DNA of 46,449 bases, taken from positions 1-46,449 of the IMG/VR virus record IMGVR_UViG_3300021478_000005; one strand, 5' to 3'. A model generated the notes under the pieces. It was not told the DNA's origin and made no database searches. It was given only the letters and a program-made list of their open reading frames with translations. A program made the position numbers and the translations under genes. This document shows, one piece after another, positions 14,814 through 46,449 of the stretch; the first letter of the stretch is position 1; each line of letters begins with the position of its first letter. This stretch comes from a virus.

Positions 14814-15434
14814 TTACTCGGCCGCCTGTAATTGGCGCAGATCTCCGAACCACTGGGCCGCGATCGCGCCCGCGATCCCCGGCATGGTGCGGCTGCGGTT
14901 CTTCTGGCGATCCGGCCCCGGCACCTCGAGGTGGACCCGCGCGTGCCGTTCCAGTGGTGTCAGGTCGGCGAAAAAATCCGGCGCGTCACGGTGCGTCGGC
15001 ACCAGCGGCGGCCATCCTCTGATCCACAGACACGTGGCCTTCACCTCGGGATCGCCGAACATCCACGGCTGCACGACCTGATCGGGCTCGCGCCACAACG
15101 TGGACAGGCGGCCAATCGGGTTTTCGATGGCCACCCGGTCGATCGGCATCAGCCACAGCGCCTTCACGTGGTGCAGGGCCGCGAGCTGGGCTTCCTGCCG
15201 CCATTCTTCGGAGACGTTCCACCGGCCACCGGACCGGGTGAGAAACGTGCAGTCGGGGAAGTAGATCGCCCCGTCCCAATGTTGGCGCACCACCCGCATG
15301 TCGAAGTAGCTGCACTGGAGGTGGTTGCCGGGTGTCTCGCTCGGCCGCACGTCACACGACCACGCATCGTGGCCCAACGCAGCCGCGGCGTCACGGCACC
15401 GGCCCGAAAACTCGCCGCCGAACAGAAGGCGCAT
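14814..15434 (-). CDS. cytosine-methyltransferase-like protein, altered motif
   Basis: 206 residues from ATG at 15434 with an AGGAGG site. The N-terminus LLFGGEFSGRCRDAAAALG is the SAM-binding start of phage C5-methylase-like proteins, followed by DAWSCDV and the region with FPDCTFLTRSGGRWN. Related proteins read HPPCTYL...SG.RWL, so the catalytic PC is preceded by Asp instead of Pro here. It may methylate cytosine, or it may be a degenerate or changed-activity homologue. It is the last gene of the leftward block. Confidence 0.6.
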   Translation of the reverse strand: MRLLFGGEFSGRCRDAAAALGHDAWSCDVRPSETPGNHLQCSYFDMRVVRQHWDGAIYFPDCTFLTRSGGRWNVSEEWRQEAQLAALHHVKALWLMPIDRVAIENPIGRLSTLWREPDQVVQPWMFGDPEVKATCLWIRGWPPLVPTHRDAPDFFADLTPLERHARVHLEVPGPDRQKNRSRTMPGIAGAIAAQWFGDLRQLQAAE

Positions 15435-37280: not shown

Positions 37281-39002
37281 TCAGATGATGAAAATCGACT
37301 GGTCGCCGCCGGCGAGGCTCGCGGTGTAGCGGCCGATGGCCATGATCAGCGCCGTCATCCCGTCGATGCGGCCGACGCTGTGGCTCTTGTGGGGCATCTC
37401 GTTGAGGTTCTTGTCCCGTTGCACTTTGAGGTTGGACGCCATCACGGTCAGCACCGGGTTGTTGCCGTGGTCGAGGATGTGGGCCGCCAGCATGGCCGCC
37501 AGTTCCTTGGTCGGCGCGGTGTAGGACCGCAACCCCTGAATAAACTCCACCATGTTGACGCCTTCCGACATCAGCTCGCCCGAAAGCTGCGTGGCGTTCC
37601 ATGGATCGAACGCGATGTCCTGAAGGTCGAACCGCTTGGTGTCCGCCAAGACCGCCGCCTTGATCTCGGCGTGGTCGACCACGTTGCCCGGCGTCACCTC
37701 GATCCATCCCTCGTCCACCCAGCGGCGATAGGGCATTCGATCGCGGTCGGCCCGTTGCTCCAAAGTGTCGGCAGGCATCCAGAACCGCGCGGCCACCCGC
37801 ATCCGCCCGTCCTGATCGGGTTCGAACAGCTTTACGAACGCGGAAATGTCGATCTTGCTCGACAGGTCGAGCCCGCCCCAGCAGCGCATCCGTTCGATCT
37901 TGTCGGGGTCGAACCGTCCCCGGCTGTTCCTGTTCCATTGTTCCATGTCGATGGCGTTTTCGACGCTGGCGGTTCGGACGTTGAGCCGCAGCCGCTTGAA
38001 CGCGTTCAACGAGTCGGGAGACTTGGCCGCCTTGCGGGCCTGCCGCCGCAGGTCATCGAGCTTTACGCTGACGCCGAGATTGGGATTTGCCTTGGCCCAT
38101 GCCTTGGGATCGTCCCATCGATCGCCCTTGTCGATGGTGGCGATGAAGGCGAACACGTCGTCGTCCTCCACCACCGCTTCCAGCACCTTGATCGCGTAGT
38201 CGTTCTCCGTGGCGTACACGCTCTCCGGGCTGTCGTCGCCCGCCGTTGTGATGATCCACAACAGGGGCTGACGGCGCGATCCCATGGCCGTGTCCATCAC
38301 GTCGAGCAAGGCCCGGGTGCGGTGCCGGTGGAGCTCGTCGATCAGCACGCAATGAGGGTTGAGACCGTCCAGTGTGCGCTCGTCGCTCGACAGGGGTTCG
38401 AACTTGCTGCCGGTGGCGTCGATGGACAGGTTGAGCTTGAACCGGGCCACCATGGCGGCCAGTTCCGGTGACGTGGCCACCATCCTCTTGGCTTCGTCGA
38501 AAATGATCCGCGCCTGGTCGCGCTTGGTGGCGGCGGCGTAGATCTCCGCGCCGGGTTCGTCGTCGCACAGCAGGATGTCCAGCCCCACGCCCGCCAGCAG
38601 GGTGCTCTTGCCGTTCTTGCGGGGCACTTCCAGATAGGCCCACCGGAACCGCCGGGTGCCGTCGCGCCGTTTCCAGCCGAACACAGACCCCACCACGAAC
38701 CTCTGCCACGGTGACAGCACGATGGGCTGGCGGGCCCACTCCCCTTTGGAGTGGCGCAAAAAGTCGCCGTAGAACTCCATCCGGAACTGCGCGGCGTGGA
38801 CGTCGAAAAACAGACCCCGTTTCTTCCCCGTTTTCAGGTCCTGCAGGTGGCGACGGCAGGCCAGCATCACGTAGCGGCAGGCCGGGATGGTCTTGGCCAC
38901 CACCGCCCGGGCATAGGCGGAAACGTCGTCAGCCGTCGAGCCGGTCGGGTTTCCTTGCGAGGTACGCCGAGAGCCGCGTGACGCCGATCGGTCTGCCGCC
39001 AT
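37281..39002 (-). CDS. terL: terminase large subunit
   Basis: 573 residues from ATG 39002, overlapping terS by 74 bp; the exact start is uncertain because the frame stays open upstream. ATPase: VPRKNGKSTLLAG (Walker A) and HCVLIDELH (Walker B). Nuclease: WGGLDLSSKIDIS and later acidic residues (IDGMTALIMAIGRY). It belongs to the HK97-type Terminase_1 group, which usually uses cos ends. It drives DNA into the prohead. Confidence 0.9.
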   Translation of the reverse strand: MAADRSASRGSRRTSQGNPTGSTADDVSAYARAVVAKTIPACRYVMLACRRHLQDLKTGKKRGLFFDVHAAQFRMEFYGDFLRHSKGEWARQPIVLSPWQRFVVGSVFGWKRRDGTRRFRWAYLEVPRKNGKSTLLAGVGLDILLCDDEPGAEIYAAATKRDQARIIFDEAKRMVATSPELAAMVARFKLNLSIDATGSKFEPLSSDERTLDGLNPHCVLIDELHRHRTRALLDVMDTAMGSRRQPLLWIITTAGDDSPESVYATENDYAIKVLEAVVEDDDVFAFIATIDKGDRWDDPKAWAKANPNLGVSVKLDDLRRQARKAAKSPDSLNAFKRLRLNVRTASVENAIDMEQWNRNSRGRFDPDKIERMRCWGGLDLSSKIDISAFVKLFEPDQDGRMRVAARFWMPADTLEQRADRDRMPYRRWVDEGWIEVTPGNVVDHAEIKAAVLADTKRFDLQDIAFDPWNATQLSGELMSEGVNMVEFIQGLRSYTAPTKELAAMLAAHILDHGNNPVLTVMASNLKVQRDKNLNEMPHKSHSVGRIDGMTALIMAIGRYTASLAGGDQSIFII

Positions 39003-39435
39003 CCGAAAACTCCGGGGCTCGACTGCCCAGCCCAGCACGCGCCGCCGGGCTGAACCCCAACTCGGACACAACGCGTATCATGATCAGGGCTTGGCGGTTA
39101 AGGATCGACAGGTAAGGGTTTTGAATGATGTTGCCGTCTTTGGTGGTCACCACGTCCCCGAGCTGGCCCACCTTGGCTGCGGCGTTGGCGTGTTTGACGC
39201 AGGCCACCACCCACACCACCAGAATTTCCCGGTCGGTGGCCGTCAGCAGGCCGGGTGGTGCCCATTCGAGGGCGTAGGCCCACTGTTCCCGCTGTTCGTC
39301 GTTGAACCAGAGGGGTGGAGCCCACAACTGGCCCTGCCCTTGGGGTTCGATGTCGGGGTCGACCGGCCGCCGCCCGGGATTGCCGTGCAATACCTTGAGC
39401 ATGGTTGGCACTGGCTTGCGTCCGGCTGTCATCAT
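38929..39435 (-). CDS. terS: terminase small subunit, P27 family
   Basis: 168 residues. N-terminal LKVLHGNPGRRP, then PPLWFNDEQREQWAY and LLTATDREILVVW, the P27 family pattern. The C-terminus (LGFSPAARAGLG) is also typical. It recognises the packaging site and passes DNA to TerL. It directly follows queE by a 4-bp overlap, so the packaging site is not between them. Confidence 0.8.
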   Translation of the reverse strand: MMTAGRKPVPTMLKVLHGNPGRRPVDPDIEPQGQGQLWAPPLWFNDEQREQWAYALEWAPPGLLTATDREILVVWVVACVKHANAAAKVGQLGDVVTTKDGNIIQNPYLSILNRQALIMIRVVSELGFSPAARAGLGSRAPEFSDGGRPIGVTRLSAYLARKPDRLDG

Positions 39436-40094
39436 CGCACCGAGATCAATTTGTGGGTCTGGATCGACAGTCGCCAGTTATGGGCCCGGCACGCCTCGAT
39501 GCAGAGCTTCGTGGCGGCGCTGTCGAGGGACACGGGCTGAAGGCTGATCTTGTCGCGCTCGATCAGGTCGCCCAGCGGTTCGATCACCTCGAGGAATTTT
39601 TCGATGTCCTCTTGGTCGGCCACGGGCAGCTTGATCTCGTCGGCCCGGATCATCACCCCCGGCAGAACATCGAGCCCGCCGGGCATGTCGATCTTGGGCG
39701 ACACGGTCACCCACGTGTCGATCGACACGTTGACGGGATAGGTGCCGCTGGTTTCGATCTGCACGCGCCCGTGGCGGCCCAGCAGAACGGTGAGGTCGTA
39801 GATGTCCTGCGCCGCCGGTTCGCCACCCGTGATCACGAAATGCCGCTGCCCCAGTTCCAGCGCCACGTCTTCGATCTGCTCGGCGGTCATCGGCGACCAG
39901 GTCGGCGCGTCGCCGGTTTTGTGGAGCATCACGTCGATGTCCACCTCCTTGCGGCTCGCCGTGGGCCACGTGTGCTTGGTGTCGCACCACGGGCACCCGA
40001 CCGGACAGCCCTGCAGGCGGATGAACGTAGCGGGCACTCCTGCGAACACTCCCTCACCTTGGAGGGTGGCGAAGATTTCGTTGACGTTGATCAT
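39432..40094 (-). CDS. queE: 7-carboxy-7-deazaguanine synthase
   Basis: 220 residues from ATG 40094. Radical-SAM CxxxCxxC at residues 30-37 (GCPVGCPWCD) after the LQGEGVFAGVP start; VITGGEPAAQD is the SAM-binding GGEP motif. It converts 6-carboxy-tetrahydropterin to 7-carboxy-7-deazaguanine (CDG). Overlaps queD by ATGA. Fits the deazaguanine pathway with folE and queD upstream. Confidence 0.9.
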   Translation of the reverse strand: MINVNEIFATLQGEGVFAGVPATFIRLQGCPVGCPWCDTKHTWPTASRKEVDIDVMLHKTGDAPTWSPMTAEQIEDVALELGQRHFVITGGEPAAQDIYDLTVLLGRHGRVQIETSGTYPVNVSIDTWVTVSPKIDMPGGLDVLPGVMIRADEIKLPVADQEDIEKFLEVIEPLGDLIERDKISLQPVSLDSAATKLCIEACRAHNWRLSIQTHKLISVR

Positions 40095-40540
40095 GGCCGG
40101 TATTCCGCGCTGTTGGCCCCGTGTTCGGCCACCTTGGTGCTGGCCACGCGCACGCGCCCGTTCTGGCTGGTCTCGTGGAGCCACTGGTCGGCCAGCCGCC
40201 ACACGTGATGTGCGAAGGCCTCGCATCCCACCATCGGCAACGTCACGATGTCCACCACGCCCGCGCTTTCCGCGATCGACCGCAGCGGCCACAGCGCGGG
40301 ATCGTCAATCGCCAGCACGGTCTTGTGGTCGAACGTGTCCACCACCGTTTGCTTCAACCCTTTCAGGCCGCCGAAGTCGATCACCCATCCCCGTTCGTCC
40401 AGCTCGTCGGCCTCGAACGTCACGGAGATCGCGAGCGCATATCCGTGGATTTTGGAACAGTGGCTGTCGGCCCGATGCTGCCGGAACGCGCACGACAGGC
40501 CCACATCGTGGCCCCACGTCTTGGTCACCTGCCACACCAT
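40091..40540 (-). CDS. queD: 6-carboxy-tetrahydropterin synthase, variant
   Basis: 149 residues. PTPS-like: SHCSKIHGYALAISVTF near residues 26-42 and WVIDFGGLK. The catalytic Cys (28) is kept, but two His seen in QueD metal sites appear changed: AAH to AFR and HGH to HGY, by my alignment. A QueD variant of this type occurs in phages, and it may bind metal differently. Predicted step: dihydroneopterin triphosphate to 6-carboxy-tetrahydropterin. Confidence 0.75.
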   Translation of the reverse strand: MVWQVTKTWGHDVGLSCAFRQHRADSHCSKIHGYALAISVTFEADELDERGWVIDFGGLKGLKQTVVDTFDHKTVLAIDDPALWPLRSIAESAGVVDIVTLPMVGCEAFAHHVWRLADQWLHETSQNGRVRVASTKVAEHGANSAEYRP

Positions 40541-41229
40541 CAGAACCCCTGTCCCCGCAGGATCGCCATCAGCTCGGCCCGAGCGGTGGCGTTGTCGAGG
40601 AAAAATCCGCGCATCACGCTGGTCACCATCGACGTGTCGGCATCCTGCACGCCCCGCCACGTCATGCACTGGTGCTCGGCCCTGATCAGAACGGCGATCC
40701 CCTGCGGACTGATCGCCTTTTCAATCTCGTCGGCCAGCATGATCACCGCTTCCTCTTGGATATGCGGCCGGGCCAGAACCCACCGCGCGAGCCGGGTGAA
40801 TTTCGACAGCCCGATGATCCGCTCGCTGGGCCTGATCCCCACCCAGCACTGCCCCCGTATCGGCAGCAGGTGATGGGCGCACATCGAGCGCACCGTGATC
40901 GGCCCCACCGTGTAGATTTCGTCAAGGTGCTTGGCGTTGGGGAAGTCGGTGAGCCGCGGCGGTGCCGTGTATCGGCCGACGAAGGCCTCCCGCACCAGCA
41001 TCCGTGCCACCCGGCGGGCCGTTTCCTTGGTGTTGTGATCGTTGGCGGTGTCGATGATCAGGGCTTGCAGCGCATCCTCGATGTGACGGCGCACCTCGTT
41101 CTCGATGGTGTCCAGATCGCGGTCGTGAAGGTGTTCGGCGATATTGTCGTTGCACCGAAACGGCACCCCCCACGCCACCAGTGTCTTGCGGATCGCGCCG
41201 GTCGTGGTGTGAGGAAACGCGGTGTCCAT
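40540..41229 (-). CDS. folE: GTP cyclohydrolase I
   Basis: 229 residues. Zinc and substrate residues are visible: SMCAHHLLPIRG (Cys117, His119/120), IIGLSKFTRLARW, and AEHQCMTWRGV (Cys188). It opens the GTP ring to make dihydroneopterin triphosphate, the first step of both folate and deazaguanine synthesis. The stop shares bases with the queD start. Confidence 0.9.
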   Translation of the reverse strand: MDTAFPHTTTGAIRKTLVAWGVPFRCNDNIAEHLHDRDLDTIENEVRRHIEDALQALIIDTANDHNTKETARRVARMLVREAFVGRYTAPPRLTDFPNAKHLDEIYTVGPITVRSMCAHHLLPIRGQCWVGIRPSERIIGLSKFTRLARWVLARPHIQEEAVIMLADEIEKAISPQGIAVLIRAEHQCMTWRGVQDADTSMVTSVMRGFFLDNATARAELMAILRGQGF

Positions 41230-41627
41230 CACTGGCCCCGCACGTTGTAAACCGTGAACGAGTCCGCGTGGCCGATCCGATCCGGCACGCCGCGCACCGC
41301 CAGTTCCACGCCGACCAGGGCGTATTCGCCGCCGCGCTTGCGGATCGCTGGCGCGGTCCACTCCACGAAGTGGCGGAACAGCATCCGCGCGATGTCCTCG
41401 TTGGTGTGGTCCTTCAGCGCTTCCGCGAAAATCTTCTTCAACTCCTCCTGCACCTCCGCGTGTGTGTCCTCAAACGATGGGAAACCGAGATCCTTCCCCA
41501 TGTAGACCGGGCTCGCACGGTAGGTGAACCGGACGGTGGCGAAGTGGCTGTGGCCCGCGAGACCCATCTGCCGGTTAAGATTGGTGAAAAACACGCTGAA
41601 CGGCCCGATGGTGTTCTCGGTGATCAT
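41229..41627 (-). CDS. unknown protein of the deazaguanine cluster
   Basis: 132 residues from ATG 41627, overlapping dpdA by ATGA and the folE start by one base. Predicted strand-helix-helix-strand-strand order: SHFATVRFTYRAS, EDTHAEVQEELKKIFAEAL, ALVGVELAVRG, SFTVYNV. This order is compatible with the T-fold of QueD, FolE and QueF, but no conserved motif proves it. It sits between folE and dpdA in a pathway lacking QueC, so it could process CDG (for example decarboxylation, as proposed for DpdL) or act in transfer. The assignment is inference. Confidence 0.7.
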   Translation of the reverse strand: MITENTIGPFSVFFTNLNRQMGLAGHSHFATVRFTYRASPVYMGKDLGFPSFEDTHAEVQEELKKIFAEALKDHTNEDIARMLFRHFVEWTAPAIRKRGGEYALVGVELAVRGVPDRIGHADSFTVYNVRGQ

Positions 41628-42502
41628 GCCGCCGACTCCGTGGCCAACGCCGCGTCGCGCACATAGTCGGCGTCGCTGTTGGTGGTGCACACGAAAAAGA
41701 ATTTGTAGTCGTTGCCGTGCCGCCGTTTCATCCACTCGTTCATTTTCAGGTACGACGTGGCCACGATCCCGCCGAACGCGGAGCGGGGCGATCCCTCCAC
41801 CTCGAGGAAATTGAACCGCTCGAAATTGTGCTCGCGCAGCCGCTCCTGATGGTGGTTGAACGCGCGGTGGTCCTTGTAGCCGAACCCCTTGAAGTCGCCG
41901 CTCAGCGGATCAAACAGGTGGACCGCGCCGAACCGGAAGCCCGATCCCCACGCCGAGCTGTCGGTGGTGGCCCATGGGAACAGCCGCAGCAGGGTGGTGT
42001 TGCTCACACCGAGACCGTGAACCTTGGCCCGACCGGCAACGATGCGGAAGCACTTGCCGAGATAGGGGATGATCACCTTGGGCCGCCCGGTGAACGGCAC
42101 GATCCGGCCGATGGCCACGTGATCGTACTCGGCGGCGTAGGCCTCCAGATATTTGAAATCCTCGCCCACGTGGAACACCGGCATGGGCGACAGGCCCTGC
42201 CGCTCCATCTCGCGCTGATTGGCCAGCGTGATCTCCGGCTGTTTCATGTCGTCGAGGTTGCAGTAGGTCCACAGTGACGGCGCGTTGGCGTGGCAGTAGC
42301 CGATGTAGTCGTCCAGCTTGATCGTCACGCCCATGGTGAACGCCGACCACGCGCCGCTGTCGAGGAACACGCTGGGAAAAACTTCGCCGAACACCTTGCG
42401 CAAAAACTCGGCCATGTTGAGCCGCTTGAAGTAGTGATAGCTCAACAGCAGGTTGACCCGCTGATCCTGGCCGCGCTCGAACGTGACGATGCGATCACCC
42501 AT
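41624..42502 (-). CDS. dpdA: DNA guanine transglycosylase DpdA
   Basis: 292 residues from ATG 42502. A TIM-barrel of tRNA-guanine transglycosylase type: FLDSGAWSAF (Asp48, base recognition), YCNLDDMKQPEI (Asp84/85 as nucleophile candidates), VHGLGVS (162-167) and TDSSAW (181-185). Phage DpdA replaces guanine in DNA with a 7-deazaguanine base, which shields it from restriction. It overlaps the ParB-like gene by 8 bp. The exact subfamily was not determined. Confidence 0.85.
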   Translation of the reverse strand: MGDRIVTFERGQDQRVNLLLSYHYFKRLNMAEFLRKVFGEVFPSVFLDSGAWSAFTMGVTIKLDDYIGYCHANAPSLWTYCNLDDMKQPEITLANQREMERQGLSPMPVFHVGEDFKYLEAYAAEYDHVAIGRIVPFTGRPKVIIPYLGKCFRIVAGRAKVHGLGVSNTTLLRLFPWATTDSSAWGSGFRFGAVHLFDPLSGDFKGFGYKDHRAFNHHQERLREHNFERFNFLEVEGSPRSAFGGIVATSYLKMNEWMKRRHGNDYKFFFVCTTNSDADYVRDAALATESAA

Positions 42503-43151
42503 CCCCCACCTCGATGTCCAGCAGGATCGCGAGCCGCCGCCAGTCGTACTCCGCGCCTGCCACGGCATCGAGGGCGCTGCGCACCTGGTCGAACACCAGC
42601 GGCGGCATTTTGATTTCCAGCGTGGGCCACGTGGCGTCCTCGGCCGGGTCGGTGTCGGCAAGATGGCGCTCGCCTTCCGTCGGTTCGGCCAGCAGGCTCG
42701 ACACTTCCAACGGCGTGAACCCCATCAACGACAGGTCCGCCGTCAGCGACCGCAGGTCACCCACCTCGAGGGCCAGCAATTCCCAATCCCAGCCCGCATT
42801 CAGGCCGATCTTGTTGTCCGCGATGATGTAGCTGCGCTTCTGTTCGCTGGTCCAGTGCCGCGCCACCACCACCGGCACCTCGGCCAGCTTCAATTGCAGT
42901 GCCGCCATCACCCGGGCGTGGCCCGCGATGATCCCGTCGTTCTCATCGACGAGCACCGGCATGGTCCAGCCCCACTCCGTGATCGACCGGGCCACCTCGG
43001 TGATCTGCGCTGGCGTGTGGGTTCGCGCGTTCCGTTCGTAGGGCTTCAACTTGGCCACCGCCCGCTTTTCCACCTTCAGGGCGGGCCACCGGGCCACGGC
43101 AGGGGTGGTCGCGCCGTTCAACGCGCTCTTCACCATTCCAACCACCCCCAT
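42495..43151 (-). CDS. ParB/Srx-like N-terminal domain protein
   Basis: 218 residues from ATG 43151. Residues 25-110: KLKPYERNARTHTPAQI, WGWTMPVLVDENDGIIAGH, RVMAALQLKLAEVPVVV, the ParB N-terminal fold. No classic ParB HTH domain is seen after it. Phage ParB-like proteins of this kind often accompany methylases or terminase genes. Here it overlaps dpdA, which may imply a role in directing modification or packaging. Confidence 0.75.
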   Translation of the reverse strand: MGVVGMVKSALNGATTPAVARWPALKVEKRAVAKLKPYERNARTHTPAQITEVARSITEWGWTMPVLVDENDGIIAGHARVMAALQLKLAEVPVVVARHWTSEQKRSYIIADNKIGLNAGWDWELLALEVGDLRSLTADLSLMGFTPLEVSSLLAEPTEGERHLADTDPAEDATWPTLEIKMPPLVFDQVRSALDAVAGAEYDWRRLAILLDIEVGDG

Positions 43152-46181: not shown

Positions 46182-46449
46182 ACGATCCCTCCATCGGCCA
46201 TGCGGTGGAGGTGGCCGTAGGTGGCGACGGCTACGCCGCACGCATCGGCCTGATGATCGTCGGCCACGTGCCAGCCCATGTTGACGGCGGCAATCACCAT
46301 CTCGTCTTTCGACGCGGACTTGAACTTGCGGCCAACCTTCTTGCGCGGTCCACACATGGCGGCCTTGACCACGCCGGGATCGACCTCGATGCACCGGAGA
46401 TCCCGTTCGGCGGCGGCCAGCTCCACCATGTTGACCAAGCCGGTGAGCA
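46178..46449 (-). CDS. RuvC-like Holliday junction resolvase, C-terminal part (continues from base 362)
   Basis: This is the 3' part of the gene whose start is at 362. The last 127 bases repeat the first 127. Within the window a truncated reading starts at Met 46438 (VNMVELAAAERDL). It contains DDHQADACGVAVATYG, the acidic helix. The two parts join in frame when the duplicate 127 bp are collapsed, giving 168 residues. Confidence 0.8.
   Translation of the reverse strand, partial: LTGLVNMVELAAAERDLRCIEVDPGVVKAAMCGPRKKVGRKFKSASKDEMVIAAVNMGWHVADDHQADACGVAVATYGHLHRMADGGIV
46323..46449. repeat. terminal direct repeat, right copy
   Basis: Identical to bases 1-127. Collapsing the two copies gives a circle of 46,322 bp. 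It shows that the contig is complete or nearly so. Confidence 0.95.

Follow-up and report, generated by a model that had tools for sequence, protein, structure and literature searches.

Which base does a phage insert into its DNA when it encodes a DNA guanine transglycosylase and the pathway to 7-carboxy-7-deazaguanine (CDG), but no QueC? This question is raised by the operon at positions 39432-42502 of the viral record IMGVR_UViG_3300021478_000005 (IMG/VR), whose whole length of 46,449 nucleotides was analysed and is called the window here. Its genes dpdA, folE, queD and queE are accompanied by one small gene for a protein of 132 amino acids (aa), the family of which we term T-fold I after its predicted tunnelling fold (T-fold). 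In the mycobacteriophages Bipper and Typha, the T-fold I gene occupies the place that QueC has in syntenic phages, and, given a protein of a different fold there, the base in the phage DNA is probably not the usual one. The operon would make and insert a 7-deazaguanine base, T-fold I most likely decarboxylating CDG and a matched DpdA inserting the product, a reading to which we give about even chances.

The operon and the closed genome

The module was predicted as one overlapping operon of dpdA, an unknown gene, folE, queD and queE, and this was borne out: all genes are on the minus strand, in the order parB-dpdA-(132-aa unknown)-folE-queD-queE-terS, and consecutive genes overlap by 8 (parB/dpdA), 4, 1, 1 and 4 (dpdA through queE) and 4 (queE/terS) bases, with parB upstream of the five-gene module and terminase genes downstream.

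42495..43151, minus strand: parB-like gene, the operon's first (phrog_620, 3.3e-50)
41624..42502, minus strand: dpdA, DNA guanine transglycosylase, 292 aa (phrog_887, 3.8e-37)
41229..41627, minus strand: T-fold I gene, 132 aa, in the QueC slot and proposed to act on CDG (synteny, homologue alignment, two structure models)
40540..41229, minus strand: folE, GTP cyclohydrolase I (PF01227, 1.6e-42)
40091..40540, minus strand: queD, 6-carboxytetrahydropterin synthase (PF01242, 6.2e-19; conserved Cys, Asp-His and Glu retained in the alignment)
39432..40094, minus strand: queE, CDG synthase of the radical S-adenosylmethionine type (PF04055, 5e-09; phrog_2076, 8.2e-41)
38929..39435, minus strand: terS, terminase small subunit (PF05119, 7.7e-12), marking the module's conserved position
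37281..38969, minus strand: terminase large subunit (PF20441 and PF03354; start codon unsettled, listed frame from 39071)

The T-fold I gene most plausibly starts at the ATG at 41627, within an ATGA shared with the dpdA stop, which gives the 132-aa protein; the frame as listed, of 168 aa, begins at a GTG further upstream, which is an unlikely start. By gene content, a DpdA homologue together with FolE, QueD and QueE, the operon belongs to the phage 7-deazaguanine (Dpd) DNA modification systems. The DpdA of the window shares 34% identity with that of Bipper, and D49 and D182, which we take to be the Asp residues of tRNA-guanine transglycosylase (TGT)-type enzymes, are invariant in the five sequences aligned. 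A parB-like gene stands beside dpdA in many relatives too, including those of the QueC type.

The further expectation that QueC, QueF and Gat genes would be missing also held, the closed genome giving no match to QueC, QueF, YhhQ or GATase_6. QueC (PF06508) had no match across the whole window record, while the same search, run as a control on 14 genomes, matched in 12; QueF, YhhQ and GATase_6 each had none in six records (the window and five relatives). The two ends of the window, 127 bases each, are identical (1-127 and 46323-46449), and an 8,032-bp contig of the same phage (L001) spans the end-to-end junction at 100% identity. The genome is hence circular and complete at 46,322 bp, so the absence of a QueC match holds genome-wide, and loss of QueC to a fragmentary contig was rejected. 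A RuvC-like gene, identified by reading of the sequence, is split across the identical 127-bp ends and bridged by L001. A decarboxylase of the UbiD type, to which we presume TubF to be linked, was likewise rejected, UbiD having no match in the same six records. TubF of tubercidin synthesis is described as a likely user of prenylated flavin mononucleotide (FMN; PMC12648386).

The gene in the place of QueC

The gene order parB-dpdA-QueC-queD-queE-folE was found in the Mycobacterium phages CRB2, Saguaro and LizLemon, Gordonia phage Sour and Arthrobacter phage Sonali (the first module gene of LizLemon is annotated as hypothetical, and Sour has a small open reading frame (ORF) before queE), and the order parB-small ORF-dpdA-Tfold-queD-queE-folE in Bipper, Typha, Hilltopfarm, Nadezda and Cracklewink. 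Two QueC-type phages of other hosts, Iggy and RHEph04, have dpdA, QueC, queD, queE and folE in a different order. Across Mycobacterium phage records, QueE matched 52, QueC 45 and T-fold I 7; that the latter two counts sum to the first fits mutual exclusion, and there was no T-fold I phage among the 44 of 45 QueC matches listed. The Rosebush/CRB2-type preQ0 module has the same genes in the same order with one gene excepted, carrying QueC where T-fold I stands, and its DpdA comes from a different branch. Rosebush DNA carries dPreQ0 (PMC6884629, Table 2), and LizLemon, one of the phages read here, belongs by classification to Rosebushvirus rosebush. The Bipper module, noted in the same paper, shares parB, dpdA, T-fold I, queD, queE, folE and terminase with the window, and neither has QueC; unlike the window, it has folE last and an extra small ORF, with protein identities of about 24-41%, and its T-fold I protein (gp4) is annotated as hypothetical.

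The T-fold I protein of the window matched nothing in Pfam or NCBIfam, and among the PHROGs nothing scored better than E 0.078. A tblastn search of 50,697 phage records found T-fold I in seven, all from Mycobacterium (Bipper, Cracklewink, Typha, Hilltopfarm and Nadezda, two of these in two versions), and a genome scan added four prophage-like loci in Streptomyces. Searches of 392 Streptomyces genomes and of 396 genomes across the phylum gave four genomes (two of them new) and one genome (that used as the centre), respectively, and a viral scan with a wider alignment gave 17 loci, 14 of them new. The company of the gene was counted in 24 sources (23 loci and the window) with hidden Markov models (HMMs) built from some of the loci, eight of the sources having supplied training rows or duplicating a phage that did. 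QueD, QueE and FolE were present in 23 of the 24 and DpdA in 22; among the 16 non-training sources the numbers were 15 and 14, respectively. In the exceptions, L043 and L051, the T-fold gene lies at the start of a contig, and in two further loci (L038 and L048) the gene order is reshuffled, with the genes still together. QueC was found in none of the 21 T-fold I virus records (0 of 7 and 0 of 14, several of the 14 being possible fragments), and the SGG[LMIVFY]DS loop, present as SGGLDS in CRB2 QueC, occurs in none of the 24 fetched stretches in any of six frames; on both grounds T-fold I falls outside the QueC family (PF06508). Two features were observed besides: a tandem pair of dpdA matches precedes the T-fold gene in L012, L013, L044, L046 and L047, and the queE of Streptomyces sp. 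TRM68367 (L012, 6678-8366) has an in-frame insert just after CxxxCxxC that, by reading of the sequence, looks intein-like and splits the QueE HMM match in two.

The place of T-fold I in the QueC slot and its company with dpdA, folE, queD and queE across unrelated phages lend good support to the first option of the original prediction, that the phage inserts CDG or a product derived from it by the unknown protein. Its second option was that the host's QueC is borrowed; in that case dPreQ0 would be made and the T-fold protein would be incidental. The host of the window phage, which an integrase-like gene suggests to be temperate, is probably proteobacterial, judging from the terminase and tail-fibre matches, and proteobacterial hosts often have QueC. 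As a general explanation, borrowing is nevertheless unlikely because hosts lacking QueC harbour this module too. The six Streptomyces genomes gave no full-length match, only partial ones that span at most about 80 of the model's 210 positions, lie within open frames of 357-1128 aa and are read by us as other PP-loop enzymes, and mycobacterial hosts are reported to have none of the pathway genes (PMC6884629). We consider borrowing of a host QueC very improbable. Equally improbable is that the module has decayed or is unexpressed and the DNA ordinary: the frames are intact and overlapping, and dN/dS (the ratio of nonsynonymous to synonymous substitution rates) of 0.17-0.52 in eight pairs of relatives, the window itself lying outside these pairs, indicates purifying selection on T-fold I. 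T-fold I is the best-conserved protein of the cassette between the window and Bipper (41% identity, against 35% for FolE, 34% for DpdA, 34% for QueE and 26% for QueD).

The transglycosylase differs along with the gene in the slot. Between Bipper and CRB2, identity is 67% for FolE, 54% for QueE and 50% for QueD, but only 36% for DpdA. The DpdA of the window aligns to that of Bipper with 149 bits and to that of CRB2 with 73, while the corresponding scores for FolE (90 and 80), QueD (27 and 30) and QueE (59 and 58) hardly favour either phage. Bipper and Typha are nested within the QueC-type actinophages in the FolE tree (97/97), whereas four QueC-type actinophages branch by themselves in the DpdA tree (100/100), with Bipper, Typha and L050 grouped outside that branch (96/86); the T-fold label requires two changes on the DpdA tree and three on the FolE tree. 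These trees cover the loci other than L001, pieces shorter than 150 aa (L048 for DpdA; L036 and L037 for FolE) and loci that gave no hit for the gene (L043; for DpdA also L051). DpdA thus seems, from these comparisons, to have travelled with T-fold I, and the two genes adjoin in most of the 24-source loci.

Such neighbourhood and apparent co-travel would also suit a T-fold I that does no chemistry, serving as a carrier of CDG or as a subunit that delivers the substrate to DpdA or sets its specificity, with unmodified CDG inserted (dCDG). About ten invariant polar residues, three His among them, resemble an active site and speak against such a role, which we rank second, as unlikely but a serious contender.

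Predicted fold and conserved residues

AlphaFold2 models were built from seven sequences for the window protein (predicted local distance difference test (pLDDT) 81.9, predicted template modelling score (pTM) 0.78) and for a Streptomyces member (pLDDT 80.6, pTM 0.73). Both show the beta-beta-alpha-alpha-beta-beta arrangement that defines a T-fold subunit, with a short third helix ahead of the last two strands. The top structural match of both was the 6-pyruvoyltetrahydropterin synthase (PTPS) 2dj6 (Z 12.1 over 109 residues at 2.6 A for the window; Z 11.2 over 107 residues at 2.9 A for Streptomyces), with Escherichia coli QueD at Z 11.3 and 10.1, respectively, and dihydroneopterin aldolase, QueF-like proteins and FolE close behind. 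By title, 49 of the 50 best matches of the window model (the remaining one, 3jyg, is uncharacterised) and all 50 of the Streptomyces model are enzymes that we take to belong to the T-fold superfamily. T-fold I is accordingly predicted by modelling to have the fold of QueD, FolE and QueF. Likeness to QueC or QueF, for which the original prediction proposed a structure search of the protein encoded at 41229, was answered in part: by Pfam, the window protein matches neither, and it represents a separate family with a predicted T-fold.

Among 22 full-length members, N16, N18, H26, H28, T55, D73, T75, N76, E77, D116, H120, T125 and Y127 are invariant, and H26-x-H28 opens strand 2 of the model. QueD presumably has two zinc ligands at the start of that strand, a third ligand and a catalytic Cys, a site that we compared without superposition. 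T-fold I is like QueD/PTPS (PF01242) in its predicted fold (Z 10-12) and the HxH at the start of strand 2, and differs in having an Asn near the place of the first zinc His and, on the same comparison, no counterpart of the catalytic Cys; the window protein contains no Cys, and none is invariant across the 22 members. PF01242 was absent from the matches at E<=1 for 19 members, so T-fold I falls outside QueD/PTPS, while the operon's own QueD keeps the Cys. Without the QueD-type zinc His and catalytic Cys, T-fold I should not work as a QueD.

T-fold I might make another CDG derivative (an amide, an ester or an unfamiliar base) or, as a QueC analogue, still preQ0. It stands exactly in the QueC slot, and T-folds include QueF and QueF-like enzymes, which act on 7-deazaguanines; one of the 19 members (not that of the window) touches the QueF/QueF-like family PF14489 at E 0.051, and the structural scores against such proteins are Z 9.9 and 10.3. 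QueC chemistry, on the other hand, requires ATP (PMC13329287), the loop for which is missing from the 24 stretches, and a change of DpdA alongside QueC would be unexpected were the product still preQ0. We judge these products improbable.

The inserted base and a second family

For decarboxylation by T-fold I, the reading that we favour, we infer a substrate, a reaction, a product, its insertion and a protective effect as follows. FolE, QueD and QueE, whose homologues are present, would lead from GTP to CDG by the established pathway. The next step, in which QueC amidates CDG with ATP and then makes the nitrile (PMC13329287), is missing, and its slot is filled, by observed synteny, with a small protein of predicted T-fold lacking the ATP loop. 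T-fold I would bind CDG and remove or alter its carboxylate without ATP, most likely by decarboxylation to 7-deazaguanine. T-folds provide a binding pocket for a guanine-like ring, and decarboxylation is ranked first because it needs only such a pocket and a proton transfer. The DpdA that seemingly travelled with T-fold I would then exchange guanine in DNA for the product, and the resulting base would protect the phage DNA from restriction, as is reported for other 7-deazaguanines (PMC6884629).

A second family in a similar setting, T-fold II (phrog_17812), bears on this scheme. It comprises the small protein that adjoins folE, queE and queD in Cellulophaga phage phiST, where QueC has no match and a TGT-like (DpdA-like) gene was identified by reading of the sequence, the DpdA HMM giving no match. 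T-fold II matched 25 phage records, phiST included, and a folE or queE match was found in 10 of 11 stretches read; QueC had no match in 9 of the 11 records tested. Like T-fold I it is a small T-fold-like protein, but the sequence families are distinct, T-fold II being recognisably QueD-like by profile (94%, E 1.3e-7), which T-fold I is not. The presence of two such families in similar places makes a T-fold step, or a T-fold partner beside DpdA, more credible. In Faecalibacterium phage Roos (L025, 5276-7872), parB, T-fold II, a DpdA-like gene (HMM E 1.3e-5) and a YhhQ-like gene (by reading of the sequence) lie in a row, and FolE, QueD and QueE have no match in the 7.9 kb read; the locus is possibly a salvage version of the pathway. 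A T-fold gene beside DpdA in such surroundings suits a DpdA partner better than a CDG enzyme and so favours the carrier role, although Roos carries the other T-fold family. In Chryseobacterium phage MA9V-3 (L023, 5434-6315) and Vibrio phage Bakedbeans (L028, 5221-6372), T-fold II is the C-terminal portion of a longer protein.

Several observations weigh against a CDG-tailoring T-fold I in place of QueC. Two of the 11 T-fold II records gave QueC matches, Vibrio D479 at 32.8 bits (over the cut-off, at positions 133-201 of 210) and Xanthomonas X1 at 16.2 bits (under it), which count against a tidy rule of T-fold instead of QueC. Some of the partial QueC matches in the six Streptomyces genomes exceed Pfam's 22-bit cut-off. 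In one locus (L043/L052) T-fold I is present without pathway genes, the pathway HMMs matching nothing in the remainder of the L043 contig; the T-fold gene is, however, located where that contig begins. The deep forks of the DpdA tree are open and long branches meet there, so the pairing in that tree is supportive only. Foldseek taken alone is weak, with no match at E<=0.001 in PDB (best 2.0e-3, top rows PTPS/QueD) or among viral models (best 5.6e-3). Sequence profiles established no relation of T-fold I with QueD (hhalign probability 0.4%), with T-fold II (4.3%) or with FolE, and a sequence search of solved structures gave no match below E 0.6; the fold thus rests on prediction, and a fold by itself says nothing of the reaction.

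The 2019 survey left unsettled which base QueC-less phages such as Bipper carry, and already had in print both the lack of QueC in Bipper and CDG as a possible base (PMC6884629). One gene in the QueC slot makes that question testable across two syntenic mycobacteriophages that share a host. Tentatively, T-fold I may be an undescribed CDG-tailoring enzyme that needs neither ATP nor prenylated FMN. Along with a matched DpdA, it would have displaced QueC and founded a phage DNA modification branch of its own, with a base (7-deazaguanine, CDG or one new to DNA) unlike that of the syntenic preQ0 phages of the same host. If so, the exchange of one tailoring gene and the transglycosylase would be a way for phages to give a protective base another chemical form, possibly through a reaction new among T-fold enzymes. 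Cui et al. reportedly proposed in 2023 a CDG decarboxylase, DpdL, for this same step, so the novelty is conditional, and T-fold I or T-fold II could be DpdL. The 2023 DpdL paper is cited in PMC13329287. We found no description of the T-fold I gene in the open-licence PubMed Central literature; as far as our searches reach, what is new is T-fold I as a family, the prediction of its fold, its position where QueC would stand, its spread to the window phage and to prophage-like loci of Streptomyces, and its pairing with DpdA.

Two phages considered for comparison were dropped: Acinetobacter phage SH-Ab 15497, which we had taken to be a deazaguanine phage, has no annotated pathway gene and no HMM match, and NC_021806, taken to be phiSM, is the record of phi14:2. 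Among the 60 matches listed for the window QueE, those in Salmonella houtenae and a short Salmonella phage record reach 52-53% identity, and the next stands at 36%. Finally, a DNA methyltransferase-like gene (14814-15434; phrog_757, 3.6e-53) perhaps provides a second layer of DNA protection.

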